IMG/VR virus record: IMGVR_UViG_3300028391_000008
Span: 1 to 34,945 of that record
Length of the DNA: 34,945 nucleotides
Strand: one strand, 5' to 3'
From: a virus
Shown: positions 15,980-28,987 of the stretch, one piece after another
Numbering within the stretch: position 1 is the stretch's first letter
Layout: every line of letters begins with the position of its first letter
The notes under the pieces: model-generated
Databases searched by the model: none
What the model was told of the DNA's origin: nothing
What the model saw: only the letters and a program-made list of their open reading frames with translations
Program-made: the position numbers and the translations under genes

Positions 15980-16684
15980 ATGAGTCAAAAGTTTACTTTA
16001 GAAGTACCCAAAGAATTATCCGCTATCACACTACAGCAGTATCAGAAGTATCTAAAAGTTATGGAAGGTAATGAAGATGCTGAAGACACAGAGTTTATCA
16101 ATCTAAAGGTATTGGAGATATTCTGTGGGGTGACAATGAAGGAGGCTTATAAGTTACCACTAGCAGAGTTTTCATTTATCATAAACCACATTGTAGAGAT
16201 ATTTAAGGAGGATACTCCACTGCAAAGGGACTTTACATTAACAGATCCTCAGGGTAACTCCGTTACCTTCGGGTTCATCCCTAAGCTAGATGATATTAGT
16301 CTAGGTGAGTTTATTGACTTAGATAATTATATAGGTGATTGGCAGGAGATACATAAGGCAATGGCTGTGCTATATAGACCAATAACATTCCGTAAAGGGG
16401 ATTTGTATTTGATAGAGGACTATGAAGGTTCAGATAAGTATGCTGAGGTAATGAAGGATGCTCCGGTAAATGTAGCTTTAGGTTCAGTTGTTTTTTTTTA
16501 TCGTTTAGGGAACGTTTTGTCGAGTTATTTACTGGACTCTTTGACGCAGAAGTTGAAGAAGGACCCGGAACTAATAAAGGATTTGGAGCAAAATGGGGAT
16601 GGTATCAATCAATATACGCAATCGCTAGAGGAGATGTCACAAAATTTAAAGAGATTACAAAACTATCAGCTTCCGAATGTCTAA
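15980..16684 (+). CDS. Tail assembly chaperone, short form (G-like)
   Basis: This 234-residue protein starts with SQKFTLEVPKELSAITLQQY, typical of tail assembly chaperones of Bacteroidota phages, and ends with an NGDGINQYTQSLEEM segment. It should bind the tape measure protein (22850-24676) and guide tail tube assembly; such proteins are not in the virion. The start is set at ATG 15980; a TTG at 15938 would add 14 residues and overlap a promoter candidate. A T9 run at 16491-16499 lets some ribosomes shift -1 and make the longer GT form. Confidence 0.78.
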   Translation: MSQKFTLEVPKELSAITLQQYQKYLKVMEGNEDAEDTEFINLKVLEIFCGVTMKEAYKLPLAEFSFIINHIVEIFKEDTPLQRDFTLTDPQGNSVTFGFIPKLDDISLGEFIDLDNYIGDWQEIHKAMAVLYRPITFRKGDLYLIEDYEGSDKYAEVMKDAPVNVALGSVVFFYRLGNVLSSYLLDSLTQKLKKDPELIKDLEQNGDGINQYTQSLEEMSQNLKRLQNYQLPNV

Positions 16685-16752
16685 CCTGGTTAGAGTTTGA
16701 GAAGGAGAAGAATGACTTAGAGGCTAAAATGATAAAACAAAAGACTAAATGA
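15980..16752 (+). CDS. Tail assembly chaperone, frameshifted long form (GT-like)
   Basis: Beyond 16498 the -1 frame stays open to TGA 16750-16752 and encodes an 84-residue extension with KWGWYQSIYAIARGD and CLTWLEFEKEKNDLEAK. This is the pattern I know from the T domain of GT chaperones (W-G-W-Y, then a helical E/K end). Its stop overlaps the next gene's ATG (ATGA), as real genes do here. The predicted fusion is about 257 residues: 173 from the 0 frame plus 84. From 16499 to 16684 both frames look coding. Confidence 0.72.
16492..16498 (+). other. Programmed -1 frameshift slippery site T_TTT_TTT
   Basis: Within the T9 run (16491-16499) the 0-frame codons are TTT TTT TAT. The heptamer T-TTT-TTT allows perfect re-pairing of both tRNAs after a -1 slip, continuing TTA TCG. 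The -1 frame is open from 16447, so this is the best site for the G to GT shift. Confidence 0.7.
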
Positions 16753-17210
16753 GACAAGTATACACCGTAATACAAAAGCTAAACGACAAACTCAAAGAGA
16801 ATGGAATTACTAATACAGTCACCTTCGGGGATATATTGGAGGTTGATTTGGACAAAACAACTATCTATCCACTATCCCATATATCAATGGGGGATGTCGT
16901 ATTCTCACCACATATCATAACCGCTACCATACAAGTATTTTGCTTAGATGTAGTTGATAAGACTAATGATCTAACTGATGAAGACCTCATCTACGGTAAT
17001 GACAATCTACAAGATATATTAAACACTCAATTACAAGTTGTAAATGACATACAGCAAGAGTTGAGGAGGGGTGAGCTGTTTAGTGATAAATTACAAATAA
17101 ACACTGATATAACCGCTTCACCATTTATAGATAACTTTGAGAATCAGTTAGCCGGTTGGGCAGCCACAATAGATATTGAGATGGCTAATAACGAACACAC
17201 TATTTGTTAA
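16749..17210 (+). CDS. Tail completion / minor tail protein
   Basis: This 153-residue protein has the sequence VTFGDILEVDLDKTTIYPLSH and an acidic, beta-rich body, as in short tail-completion proteins of Bacteroidota siphophages. It is ATGA-coupled to the GT frame and TAATG-coupled to the gp10-like gene, so the three are one unit. Function is inferred from context and general resemblance. Confidence 0.65.
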   Translation: MRQVYTVIQKLNDKLKENGITNTVTFGDILEVDLDKTTIYPLSHISMGDVVFSPHIITATIQVFCLDVVDKTNDLTDEDLIYGNDNLQDILNTQLQVVNDIQQELRRGELFSDKLQINTDITASPFIDNFENQLAGWAATIDIEMANNEHTIC

Positions 17211-17686
17211 TGGCTAAGAAAAAGTATACAACAAAGGTTCTTGATAAATACAAGAAGATACTAGTCGCTGAATTAAAGAGGGAGTTAAATAAGCCTGGTA
17301 GTGACTTGGAGAAGAGTATTGTTGGTAGGAAACTAAAAGGTCGGGATGGTTTTGGTATCTATATGAATGAATACGGTATCAATGTTAATTACGGAAGAAA
17401 TCCTGGTAAAATGCCAGGTAAACCGCCAATGCTTAACTTACGAGATTGGATTGAGAGAAAAGGCATTAAACCCCAAAAAACATCAAGCAAAAAACCATTA
17501 ACCATAAGAGATCTCACATTTATAATAGGTAGGTCTATAAAAGAAAATGGTATAAAGCCAGTTAGATTCATAGATGGAGTTATAGATCGATTTGAACCAA
17601 GTATAACAAAAGAACTTACCGAAGCATATCAAAAACAAATACAAGAAGAAATACACGAGGCCACTCCTTCAGCTAAGAAGAGTTAA
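17210..17686 (+). CDS. HK97 gp10-like head-tail / tail completion protein
   Basis: This 158-residue protein is basic. It has a GINVNYGRNPGKMPGKPP segment (about 57-74) and a C-terminal FIIGRSIKENGIKPVRF (about 103-119), as in HK97-gp10-like minor tail proteins. ATG 17210 overlaps the previous stop; an in-frame TTG at 17204 is less likely. It probably caps or joins the tail to the head. Confidence 0.7.
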   Translation: MAKKKYTTKVLDKYKKILVAELKRELNKPGSDLEKSIVGRKLKGRDGFGIYMNEYGINVNYGRNPGKMPGKPPMLNLRDWIERKGIKPQKTSSKKPLTIRDLTFIIGRSIKENGIKPVRFIDGVIDRFEPSITKELTEAYQKQIQEEIHEATPSAKKS

Positions 17687-17730: not shown

Positions 17731-19338
17731 ATGAGTGATGTTAGAATAAATACTAGGAGTCCATACTATATTGAGGCAAACCCTACAGCACCTGAAGTAC
17801 CAGAAACACCTGAGGTTCCAGACCCACCAACTAATATACCACCTACGGTAACTATTACTGCTAGTAATACAACACCTTATGTTGGCGATACAATTACTTT
17901 AACTGCGGTAGCTACAGATAGTGATGGGACTATAGTGAGTTATTTATGGGGTGGCACATCATCACCAGAGACAACAGTATCTATAGACGTTACAAATACT
18001 ACAGTTGAACCTAAAATATACAATGTAGCAGTTACAGATGATGATGGAGATGTAGGATTGGCACAAATAACTATTAACTGGCAAGAAGTACCTGAACAAA
18101 TTACAAACACAGATATAGAAGTAAATTGTGGTGATATTATAAATCAGGCTTCTTTCGTAGGAACTAAAACTTATAATTTAGTAGGTGTTGGAGATAAAGT
18201 TGGAGAAGTAGAGATTGAATTTATGGATGGTGGTTCACAACAGGATTCACCTGTTAAATTTAATATTACTTGGAATAATACTACAAATACCACAGGATAT
18301 ATAGGAGATTCTAATTATACTATTACAGACCCAATTCCATCACCAAATAATACTGCATATCCAACCAATAAAAAGCAACCTACAACATTAACTATAAATA
18401 AAACAGCAGCAACTCCAACAGAAGTTGTATTGACTGCTGAGGCATTTGTTCCTAATGATAGTTTTAGTTTTAGATTAAATTGCCCAGATGTAGAAGCTAC
18501 AGAAACATTTTACTATACACTTACAGGTACTTGTACGACAGGTGATACTACATTTACCTACACAGATGTAAATGGAGTGGCTCAAACAGTTGTATTAGCT
18601 AATGGAGAAACACAATTAGCATCTGCTCAAGAAGATACTGTATCTGCTGCTATATGTACTGGTACTGCTGAAAAAGGAGGGCAAAGTTTTGATCTAGGAA
18701 AACCAGAACAAACAGTAGATACATTAACTGAATTTAAATTTTGGCTAGACAATTCAGGGTCTTTAGGATATTTAGGAAGAAGCGGTGAAATAGATGAGAT
18801 AGCTAAAATGACCGAAAATGAACTTAAAAATTCATTCTTACAATATTATGATAATGATACTGCATTGTATAACGAAAGAGTTATATATGAGCAAAACTAT
18901 AATGAAAGATTTTTAAACTGGGCTACAAATGATGCGATATCTCCTACAGCCACAAAGCTAGTGCATTTAACTTTTATAGATGAAGCAGCATCTAGTTATC
19001 ATAATAGTGATGTAGGTGATAATACAAAAACAGGAGCTTATACAACGGATTTATCAAATTTCAGAAATAAATTAGATAGTAAGACTACTTTTGGAGAACA
19101 TCTATTTATTATATTTTGTATAGAAAAAGAAAAAGGTGGACCCCCATATGATAGTTGGATGCAGTTTTCACACTTTATAGATAATATTTCTACTGGGGCT
19201 AATGGTTTTGATGGCAGCAATGGGCTTTCAGACCGCTCTGAAGTTATTTTTGTGAGAAATGTATTACCGGCACAAAATTCAGCATATTATCATCAGGTAA
19301 CAATAGATGCACTACAAAGTTTAGGATATAAAATATAA
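17731..19338 (+). CDS. Virion protein with PKD/Ig-like domain and vWA-like domain
   Basis: This 535-residue protein has a proline/glutamate N-terminus (about 16-36) and a PKD-like domain (about 38-118: PPTVTITASN, then IVSYLWGG and AVTDDDGDVG). A beta-rich, Thr-rich middle follows. From about 334 there is a vWA-like C-terminal domain: FWLDNSGS gives the DxSxS MIDAS motif (D340, S342, S344), with LTFIDEA at about 413-419 in the place of the third metal-binding motif. Such adhesion domains are known in some tail and fibre proteins, so it may help surface binding. Genes around it are tail genes; its leader has an AAGGAAG run, uncommon here. Confidence 0.7.
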   Translation: MSDVRINTRSPYYIEANPTAPEVPETPEVPDPPTNIPPTVTITASNTTPYVGDTITLTAVATDSDGTIVSYLWGGTSSPETTVSIDVTNTTVEPKIYNVAVTDDDGDVGLAQITINWQEVPEQITNTDIEVNCGDIINQASFVGTKTYNLVGVGDKVGEVEIEFMDGGSQQDSPVKFNITWNNTTNTTGYIGDSNYTITDPIPSPNNTAYPTNKKQPTTLTINKTAATPTEVVLTAEAFVPNDSFSFRLNCPDVEATETFYYTLTGTCTTGDTTFTYTDVNGVAQTVVLANGETQLASAQEDTVSAAICTGTAEKGGQSFDLGKPEQTVDTLTEFKFWLDNSGSLGYLGRSGEIDEIAKMTENELKNSFLQYYDNDTALYNERVIYEQNYNERFLNWATNDAISPTATKLVHLTFIDEAASSYHNSDVGDNTKTGAYTTDLSNFRNKLDSKTTFGEHLFIIFCIEKEKGGPPYDSWMQFSHFIDNISTGANGFDGSNGLSDRSEVIFVRNVLPAQNSAYYHQVTIDALQSLGYKI

Positions 19339-22717: not shown

Positions 22718-22857
22718 TAAGAGAAGTGATAGACTTATTGAAGGCTGATGATTTTTATGGGGTTGATCCTATAATAGATATAGCTAAGGGTAAATATAAA
22801 GCCCCTACGAAATTTAAAGAATTTAAGGAATCTGTAAAGAGAAGAGCAAATGGCTAA
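22714..22857 (+). CDS. Small basic protein, 47 aa
   Basis: Starts ATGA-coupled to the large tail protein and overlaps the tape measure start by 8 bp. The 47 residues are charged and helical (KYKAPTKFKEFKESVKRR). Position just before the tape measure suggests a tail assembly accessory; no family recognised. Confidence 0.55.
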   Translation: MIREVIDLLKADDFYGVDPIIDIAKGKYKAPTKFKEFKESVKRRANG

Positions 22858-24676
22858 TAAACAGAGTAAATTAACTTTTGTTATCGATATAGATAATAAG
22901 GGAAAAATCAAGATTGATGGAATAAAGAGTAATTTCAGTGATTTAGAAAAAAAAATTAAATCAGCAACAACATCAACAGATACTTTCAATAAAAAAAATG
23001 TTGATTTAATTGCTACATCTGGACTAGCCGGAGCCACTTTGACTGAAGTTGGTCGTACTGTATCTGATTTTAACTATGGAATTAGGGGTATGGCAAACAA
23101 CTTATCTCAGTTGTCTACCTTATTTATTACTTTAATAGGAAAAGCGGGTGGATTTAGGAAAGCTCTTTCGATATTGGGAACTCAGTTGATGGGTCCAATG
23201 GGAATAATACTAGCCTTTCAAGCTGCAATAACTATAATTGAGGCTTTTTCTATGAAACAAGATAAGGCTAAAAAATCAACGGATGGATTGACCGAGGCTT
23301 TAGGTAGACAGGCTCAAAGGTTTATCGATTTTCAACAGGGTTTAGGTAGGTATAATACTGATCTAGAAAAGACAGAGGATATAGTCAAGGTTATGTCTAA
23401 TAGATTCCCAGAATTTAAAAAATTAGTTGAAGGATTAGGAGATAAACCTAGCAGGGAAAATTTAGAAGCATTAATTGCAATGTATACAGATTTCTTGTTA
23501 ACTCAAGATAAGCTGACAAAAAAAGAAAAAGAATTATCTGGTTTGAGAGGAGAGTTCTTTAAGATTCCTGAGGCAGAAAGAACTAAGAATATATCAGATA
23601 AGTTTTTTGCTGACAGTGAAAAATTAAAAGGTCAAATATTTGATTTAGAGTTAAGGATAGCTCAATTCAAAGATGTATTCGAGAAGGAAGGTGGTGCTCC
23701 AACACCTCCTGAATTTATAAGAAAACAACTTGAGGCCTTAAATCCATTCTTTGAAAAATTCTTTTTTGATATAAATAAAAAGGGTGAGATTGTATTTAAG
23801 AGTGCTTTAGAGGACGTTGAATTTACTGCAAGTGCTTTGGCTAAAAGTGCACTAGAGGCTACGGATGAGTTAGAGCAAATGGGTGAGAGGTATGATGATC
23901 ATATAAAAAGACTTGATGAGTCTGCAAAAGCAGGAATCAAGGCTATAAAAAATCAAGCAGCAGAAATACAAGGTGTTTTTTCTGCAACTCAAAAGTCTTT
24001 GGGATATCTAAATGATGTTTTTTCTTCGTACAATAATGCTAGAATGGAAGCATTAGCTAGAGAAAGAGATTACATACTTAATTCAGGAAGATTAACTGGA
24101 GCTGCTCAGAAAAAGGCATTAGAAGAGATAGAGAAGAAAGAACTAAAGGCTCAAGAAAGAAAAATAAAATCCGAGAGAGATATGTTCACTATAAAGCAAT
24201 CTTTGCTTATAGCTGAGGAAATTATGAGAGCAAAGGCTTTTGCTGCTGAACAAATAAGAACTGCTCAGTTGGCGGTAGAAAAAGGTAAGGCAACCGCACA
24301 GCAAATAGCTCTTGATTCGGTTTCAAGCATAGGTGCTGCTAATATGTCTATAGGGGCTTTTGTTAAGGCTCTTGGTCCTTATGGAACGGCAGCCTTTGCA
24401 ATAAGTATAGGTGGTATTATAGCATCAATAGTGGCTGCAAGGAAAAAGGCAAGTTCTGCAATAGCTGCATTGGGAGCCCCATCAACAGGTGGAGGTGGTG
24501 GATTAGGTGTTGAAGCCCCAGATTTCAATGTAGTTGGTGCTTCACCCGAATCACAATTAGCACAATCTGTATCTAGACAGCAAACACAGCCATTAAGAGC
24601 GTTTGTAGTCAATAAAGACATAAAAGATGCTGAGGAATTGGATAGAACCATTGATTTTAATAGGTCTTTAGGATAA
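22850..24676 (+). CDS. Tape measure protein
   Basis: This 608-residue protein has a charged N-terminus, hydrophobic segments at about 78-125 (containing LGTQLMGPMGIILAFQAA) and again near 500-530. Between them are long K/E coiled coils and a Gly-rich tail. These features, and placement after the chaperones, identify the ruler that sets tail length and may pierce the membrane. By the usual ~0.15 nm per residue rule, the tail would be about 90 nm (inference). The start ATG 22850 lies inside the upstream gene. Confidence 0.82.
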   Translation: MANKQSKLTFVIDIDNKGKIKIDGIKSNFSDLEKKIKSATTSTDTFNKKNVDLIATSGLAGATLTEVGRTVSDFNYGIRGMANNLSQLSTLFITLIGKAGGFRKALSILGTQLMGPMGIILAFQAAITIIEAFSMKQDKAKKSTDGLTEALGRQAQRFIDFQQGLGRYNTDLEKTEDIVKVMSNRFPEFKKLVEGLGDKPSRENLEALIAMYTDFLLTQDKLTKKEKELSGLRGEFFKIPEAERTKNISDKFFADSEKLKGQIFDLELRIAQFKDVFEKEGGAPTPPEFIRKQLEALNPFFEKFFFDINKKGEIVFKSALEDVEFTASALAKSALEATDELEQMGERYDDHIKRLDESAKAGIKAIKNQAAEIQGVFSATQKSLGYLNDVFSSYNNARMEALARERDYILNSGRLTGAAQKKALEEIEKKELKAQERKIKSERDMFTIKQSLLIAEEIMRAKAFAAEQIRTAQLAVEKGKATAQQIALDSVSSIGAANMSIGAFVKALGPYGTAAFAISIGGIIASIVAARKKASSAIAALGAPSTGGGGGLGVEAPDFNVVGASPESQLAQSVSRQQTQPLRAFVVNKDIKDAEELDRTIDFNRSLG

Positions 24677-27997: not shown

Positions 27998-28546
27998 ATG
28001 GCTTGTGATTTAACTAAAGGTAGAAAAGAACCCTGTAAAGACGTAGTTGGAGGACTGAACGCAATATACTTTATTGACTATGGTGATTTAGGTACAGTTA
28101 CAGAAACTGATGACGAGATTACAGATTTGTCTGGGACTTTTACTGCTTACAAATATGAATTGAAAGGTAATAGTAGCTTTGAGCAAACTATTACTGCTTC
28201 AAGAGAGAATGGTACAACATTCTTTGAGCAAACGCTAAACCTAACTCTTAAGAAACTTTCTAAAGAAGATCATAAAGAGATTAAGTTATTAGCTTACGGA
28301 AGACCTCACGTTGCTGTTGAAGACTATAATGGAAATGTATTCATTATGGGTCTTGAGCACGGAGCTGATGTGTCTGGAGGAACAATCGTAACTGGTGCTG
28401 CTATGGGAGATTTATCAGGATACACACTTACTTTAAGTGGTATGGAAGTAAAACCTGCTAACTTTGTTTCTTCACCTACTGCTGCTGATCCATTCGCAGG
28501 AATGAGTTCTGCAACAGCTACTATTACTGAGGGAACTAACTCTTAA
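27998..28546 (+). CDS. Major tail tube protein (candidate)
   Basis: A 182-residue protein with MACDLTKGRKEPCKDVVGG, then YKYELKGNSSFEQTITASRE (about 51-70) and KLLAYGRPHVAVED, as in the abundant tail-tube-like proteins of Bacteroidota siphophages. It sits between two terminators, consistent with separate high expression. The split position among head genes is odd for a tail gene. Alternative: another abundant virion protein. Confidence 0.68.
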   Translation: MACDLTKGRKEPCKDVVGGLNAIYFIDYGDLGTVTETDDEITDLSGTFTAYKYELKGNSSFEQTITASRENGTTFFEQTLNLTLKKLSKEDHKEIKLLAYGRPHVAVEDYNGNVFIMGLEHGADVSGGTIVTGAAMGDLSGYTLTLSGMEVKPANFVSSPTAADPFAGMSSATATITEGTNS

Positions 28547-28565: not shown

Positions 28566-28598
28566 AAAGGGGTTACAGAGATGTAACCCTTTTTTTTT
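28566..28598 (+). terminator. Intrinsic terminator after the tail tube gene
   Basis: GGGTTAC (28570-28576) and GTAACCC (28583-28589) form a perfect 7-bp stem with a 6-base loop, followed by nine T residues. Confidence 0.85.
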
Positions 28599-28630: not shown

Positions 28631-28987
28631 ATGATAAGGTTATTACCAAGTACAGGCACTCAGACCATAAGTATTGTTCCTAGAGAATATACTGAGGCTA
28701 GTGATTTAGAATTATCAATTAGGGAAGACGGTACTAGAAAGAAAGAAACATTAGAGGCCTTAACGTCTACTATAAACGGTAACTTTTTAGACATAGAATG
28801 TACTTTTAGTATTCTATCTGAGGAAAGTTCTTATTCTATAGAAATCAAGCAAGGTGATACTTTACTTTATAGAGACAAGGTTTATTGCACTTCTAAAACG
28901 GATACTACAATATCACATACTTTAAATACTGATGAATATAATCAGCACGATTCCGAAACCGAAGAGCAACAATATATAATAATATGA
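28631..28987 (+). CDS. Small beta-rich virion protein, 118 aa
   Basis: The sequence TGTQTISIVPREY (about 8-20), SYSIEIKQGDTLLYRDKVYC (about 67-86) and an acidic end resemble small structural proteins in this position in Bacteroidota phages. ATGA-coupled to the portal gene. Function inferred by context. Confidence 0.55.
   Translation: MIRLLPSTGTQTISIVPREYTEASDLELSIREDGTRKKETLEALTSTINGNFLDIECTFSILSEESSYSIEIKQGDTLLYRDKVYCTSKTDTTISHTLNTDEYNQHDSETEEQQYIII

Follow-up and report, generated by a model that had tools for sequence, protein, structure and literature searches.

A T run of at least nine and a two-frame overlap in a candidate tail-assembly chaperone gene of marine Bacteroidota phages

Frameshifting in tail-chaperone genes is a textbook case of ribosomal recoding in phages. 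The chaperone genes of lambda and of P2-type phages use a ribosomal -1 slip, and the G/GT chaperones bind the tape measure and tail-tube proteins and are absent from the virion. A ribosomal slip on T_TTT_TTT requires only seven Ts in one phase, and the elements that stimulate frameshifting are common, not universal. Transcriptional slippage sites give rise to an mRNA population that is heterogeneous in run length; we know of no description of slippage in vivo in Bacteroidota. Transcription of homopolymers inserts mostly single bases, does so only in A/T, and does so at a frequency that increases exponentially as the run lengthens (PMC5574713). E. coli RNA polymerase has a bias to poly(T) (PMC6260861), and selection against A/T runs appears at nine in many bacterial genomes (PMC1088944). 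Known bacterial cases of transcriptional realignment include Shigella mxiE, Thermus dnaX, and IS transposases (PMC3711429, PMC5009743, PMC1088944). A tail chaperone made by such slippage was not found in the literature searched.

The locus described here lies in a viral contig of 34,945 nucleotides (IMG/VR record IMGVR_UViG_3300028391_000008), the whole of which is called the window. It is best explained, with a probability of roughly 0.6, as a G/GT chaperone pair produced by RNA polymerase slippage on a run of nine Ts (T9).

Reading frames of the locus and its homologues

Gene G (15980–16684, plus strand) starts with ATG and encodes a short product of 234 aa in frame 0. A T9 run inside the gene (16491–16499, plus strand) is the putative slip site, and frame 0 across it reads GTT TTT TTT TAT, starting at 16490. 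The -1 frame, open from 16447 to 16752, lacks a usable start in its early part and ends in a TGA that overlaps the ATG of the next gene (16749) as ATGA. The T extension in this frame (16498–16752, plus strand) runs LSFRE...KTK for 84 aa and then TGA; the read-through product would consist of G as far as VFF followed by these 84 residues. In frame 0, the tail of G continues beyond the run for ~61 codons. The -1 frame encodes KWGWYQSIYAIARGD and the 0 frame NGDGINQYTQSL. The T domain is accessible solely via the T run. The first-pass annotation had placed the run at this position with T-TTT-TTT in the 0 frame, and had described the -1 frame, its want of a useful start, the 84-residue extension, and the ATGA junction; all of these were confirmed in the letters of the window. 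It had also staked its reading on conservation of the -1 frame across homologues, and that frame is conserved.

The G query matched 74 homologous loci, each in a different viral contig, and those that cover the site carry T9 in all but one (L065, T10), with G in frame 0 and T in frame -1. At least 589 relatives were found among viral contigs with a T-domain query; 80 of them were kept and examined, and they have T9 or T10 wherever the site is covered. Distinct G homologues collected blind to the run gave the same picture in 166 of 166 cases (T9 in 127, T10 in 36, T11 in 3), with G always in frame 0 and T always in frame -1. Across the wider family, T9 and T10 are both common and T11–T12 also occur, and the frame relation is constant. 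Run lengths differ by codon substitutions or by insertions of whole codons, so the G and T frames stay in place, and no in-frame fusion of G and T was seen among family members. Related coding-oriented DNA totalling 647 kb contains 24 T8 and 75 T9 runs, and the majority of the T9 runs are the G/T site. Taken with the presence of the run throughout the homologues, these counts indicate that T9 stands at the G/T site more often than by chance. As judged from these contigs, a run of nine or more Ts is maintained within one tail gene in hundreds of phages of the marine flavobacterial type.

Two isolated relatives are the Nonlabens phages P12024L and P12024S (JQ823123 and JQ823122; genus Inhavirus), which have T9 and the same frame relation. 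They are like the window in the order of G, T, terminator-like, completion-like, and tape-measure-like genes, and unlike it in that the 0-frame tail has only ~30 codons and that G and T are annotated as two proteins, the products of two separate hypothetical genes. A scan of cellular-genome contigs gave only two matches, both in flavobacterial metagenome-assembled genomes, which suggests the host group. In PHROGs, gene G matches phrog_32199 (E 7e-16) and pieces of T match phrog_38404 and phrog_16793, all with function unknown.

Three contigs depart from the common pattern in one frame or the other. In L169 (T8) and L282 (T9), G is in the wrong frame, resembling a one-base deletion in the run, and these are either sequencing errors or real variants. 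In L060 (6001–6740), an in-frame TAG takes the place of the conserved K of KWGWY in the -1 frame; T9 is retained there and frame 0 is uninterrupted. A close relative, L059, is intact, and L060 represents either an assembly error or a broken T.

Run length, phase, and the slipping enzyme

A pattern scan of 2.9 million viral contigs looked for a T run followed, 82–112 bases on, by codons for KWGWY, and the run lengths in this set hinge on the presence of those codons. The scan returned at least 119 sites with T9, at least 120 with T10, and 33 with T11 or more. For T7 and T8 it returned 8 stretches in all from the 2.9 million contigs, a count with no upper limit in play, among which only L163 and L165 (both T8) are intact family members; another is L169 with its apparent one-base deletion, and the rest are unrelated or not assignable to the family. 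A distant scan, blind to the run and made with a single distant T domain as query, yielded 40 distinct sites with T9 (7), T10 (30), or T11 (3).

The codons around the run show how its length is kept. FF is preceded in most members by GTT, CTT, ATT, or TTT, with TAT, TAC, TGG, or TCG possible as the fourth codon. In other members, GAT, AGT, GGT, AAT, GCT, or CAT precedes FF; there the fourth codon is TTN and the run still has at least nine Ts. In a pooled count that omits the spurious L164, the fourth codon is TTN in 58 of 59 sequences with one of the latter codons, compared with 86 of 328 with a middle T. On a tree of 387 sequences (total length 93 substitutions per site; approximate, since the proteins are short), the middle T was lost six times independently, and a 3' extension is present in five of the six, compared with 22% of comparable branch length (binomial p ~0.0025). 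Compensation between 5' and 3' Ts of this kind is predicted by a length threshold near nine and not by a heptamer. On these counts, the conserved feature is a run of at least nine in any phase, beyond a one-phase heptamer. The site therefore has the form of a transcriptional slippage site, an A/T homopolymer of nine or more irrespective of codon phase, and it also has the in-phase X_XXY_YYZ heptamer of a ribosomal site, with T_TTT_TTT in all family members.

Stimulators of ribosomal frameshifting were sought on both sides of the run, and neither a 3' structure nor a 5' Shine-Dalgarno (SD)-like element was found to be enriched there. Downstream pseudoknot-free structure was not enriched across 108 loci (mean z -0.10), and upstream structure gave no signal in 108 loci (mean z +0.24). 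SD-like motifs near the run occur in few of the loci and are not enriched. Single folds of the window contained no stimulatory structure, and the consensus fold of close relatives gave no signal, one of its 45 pairs being double-changed.

A run of at least nine in any phase, together with the lack of enrichment of any ribosomal stimulator, favors transcriptional slippage, which is probably the mechanism and is better supported than ribosomal slippage. One added U leads to exactly frame -1. No ORF with the look of a single-subunit RNA polymerase occurs in the contig, so the host polymerase is the likely slipping enzyme. In most transcripts, T9 would be copied faithfully, giving G with its own 61-residue helical tail. 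In a fraction of transcripts, RNA polymerase would slip on the run and add one U; normal translation of these transcripts would then pass into frame -1 and yield GT, which carries the T domain in place of the tail of G. On the model of lambda, the tape measure protein would be bound through the G part and tail-tube subunits recruited through the T part. We lean toward the view that the chaperone pair in a large family of marine Bacteroidota phages comes from programmed slippage of RNA polymerase in place of ribosomal frameshifting, with the amount of GT relative to G set by run length and the late-gene polymerase, and with the G tail and the T domain co-evolved in two frames.

Conventional -1 ribosomal frameshifting, in which tRNA-Phe in the P and A sites slip together on T_TTT_TTT and the extra Ts only reflect hydrophobic codons on either side, is a possible but doubtful alternative. 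It draws on the in-phase heptamer in every member and the two genuine T8 members, but T7 and T8 are otherwise nearly absent from the family, and neither a stimulatory structure nor an SD-like element is enriched. U_UU.U_UU.U belongs to an efficient -1 motif class in E. coli (PMC4066793), and known G/GT cases are described as ribosomal (PMC5009743). Hydrophobicity, however, leaves the T unexplained where Asp, Ser, Asn, Gly, His, or Ala precedes FF, and with those codons the run is extended on the other side. The idea that hydrophobic codons dictate the Ts flanking the heptamer was rejected on these grounds, as polar codons do occur there, with compensation. The programmed -1 G/GT frameshift that had been proposed for the window thus stands as a conserved frame transition giving a G/GT-like pair, while the lambda-type ribosomal slip on T_TTT_TTT that had been proposed with it is probably wrong. 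Any run of nine or more contains an in-phase T_TTT_TTT, and ribosomal slippage may contribute to, or suffice for, GT synthesis alongside or in place of the favored slippage of RNA polymerase.

Selection on two frames in the overlap

The overlap (16500–16684, plus strand) codes for the G tail in frame 0 and for the T domain in frame -1. Variation in the body of G falls at the third codon position, and beyond the G stop it falls at the third position of the -1 frame, which is position 2 of frame 0. Within the overlap, the three positions vary about equally and little in the window's group. Substitutions were mapped on trees and sorted by their effect in frames 0 and -1. In the window's group, changes that are silent in -1 and alter frame 0 are slowed to 0.37, both relative to their own class past the G stop (p 1e-5) and relative to synonymous changes in the G body (p 8e-15); in three other groups, they proceed at 0.37 to 0.49 of the rate in the body. 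For changes that alter -1 and are silent in frame 0, the figure is 0.20 to 0.30. Doubly silent changes (14 observed in three groups, at few sites) are not slowed, which is evidence against a general nucleotide or RNA-structure constraint. Two frames appear to be in use over the ~60 codons that follow the run, with purifying selection on both. This had been suggested from the window, with synonymous-site constraint across homologues as the check; the slowing of single-frame changes supports it, and both frames are constrained.

It is unlikely that the 0-frame tail is a mere shadow of T coding and itself unselected. The conserved NGDGIN in the tail is a shifted reading of KWGWYQ, the 0-frame stop sits on conserved C-L-T/M codons, and the tail has only ~20–36 codons in P12024L, L074, and a distant clade, so only part of the family has a long 0-frame tail. 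A shadow is nevertheless at odds with the slowing to 0.37 of changes that alter frame 0 alone, and with the unslowed rate of doubly silent changes. Synonymous recoding of T in the window left frame 0 open to the observed extent in 0.45% of trials; in the same test on L031, L066, and L074, frame 0 stays open in 16 to 65%.

Chaperone identity, tail context, and known systems

From their architecture and tail-module context, G and GT are very probably the tail-assembly chaperone pair of a long-tailed marine Bacteroidota phage. The locus encodes, at the level of sequence, a short and an extended product with a shared N-terminus, conserved in relatives, and it lies in a tail module with a putative tape measure protein. 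The next gene, whose start overlaps the T stop (16749–17210, plus strand; 153 aa, 29% identical to P12024L_42), is suggested by its position to be a tail terminator. A 160-aa protein (17204–17686, plus strand) is weakly like tail completion or Neck1 proteins (phrog_5, E 0.035; phrog_29822, E 8e-6), and a 608-aa protein (22850–24676, plus strand) is tape-measure-like in sequence character, with a C-terminus like that of P12024L_50. These three proteins have counterparts in the same order in P12024L. G/GT is upstream of the tape-measure-like gene, with several genes between, and not adjacent to it.

Other features of the window were recorded in passing. The structural genes are in an unusual order (11734–34937): terminase, G/GT, tail genes, tape-measure-like, head protease, capsid-like, portal, and tail fibre. 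A 535-aa protein (17731–19338) has a PKD/Ig-like stretch (K319L-like PKD, E 1e-5, just under its cut-off). An A9 run within the tape-measure-like gene (22947–22955) is a possible slip site, and a second T9 (28590–28598) lies between ORFs 27998–28546 and 28631–28987.

Searches of Pfam, PHROGs, NCBIfam, and PDB sequences gave no match to a named chaperone. The AlphaFold model of G (pLDDT 82) had no match among PDB folds at E 0.001 or better; its matches among viral models are nearly all uncharacterised, and the single named chaperone is weak (E 0.71). VIA-align gave rows on the C-terminal helices of G only (Z up to 7), a result that carries no information where helical bundles are concerned. The T-domain model (pLDDT 70, moderate confidence) was left out of the argument. 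In Flavobacterium phage 6H (L161, 9300–10927, minus strand), gp10 resembles the G model and is upstream of the annotated tape measure gene. It was considered as a bridge from this weak match (E 1e-3) and dropped, as its 3' end is without T9 and its frames look broken; the 3' part seems to run on in other frames, so the gene may be misread or recoded differently.

The frame transition could be real and the protein another tail or head protein made in two lengths, as the missing matches to named chaperones and solved folds and the distance from the tape-measure-like gene would allow. We consider this quite unlikely, given the two-product architecture, the tail-module neighbors, the tape-measure-like gene on the same strand, and the order kept in P12024L. 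The tail-chaperone identity proposed in the first-pass annotation gains from the same architecture and context and is likely. The risk it had raised, that a sequencing error in the run divides what is truly one gene, is negligible, as is an assembly error or a phase-variable tract with the same consequence: homopolymers are prone to errors and L169 and L282 resemble one-base deletions, but the same -1 relation holds in hundreds of independent contigs at any run length and in all 166 distinct homologues, isolated P12024L included, a fused frame is found in none, and the overlap is constrained in frame 0 too.

If a G/GT pair is indeed made by RNA polymerase slippage here, selection keeps the protein pair and not the decoding step, and the family offers its T8 to T12 sites as a natural series on which slippage in Bacteroidota can be measured. 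In PHROGs and GenBank, G and pieces of T are entered as separate proteins without a known function, so public genomes lack the T domain or have it cut short, an annotation that is corrected here. The overlap is a usable example of dual-frame selection.

Compared with known systems, the locus is like lambda gpG/gpGT in having one start, a short and a -1 extended product, and a place in the tail module of a long-tailed phage. It is unlike lambda in its run of at least nine Ts in place of a short one-phase heptamer, in its selected overlap of ~61 codons, and in its position away from the tape measure gene, and no relation in sequence or solved fold was detected between the two. With mxiE, dnaX, and the IS transposases it shares an A/T run of nine or more that is conserved in length but not in phase, free of frame-moving indels, and it differs from them in being a phage tail gene.
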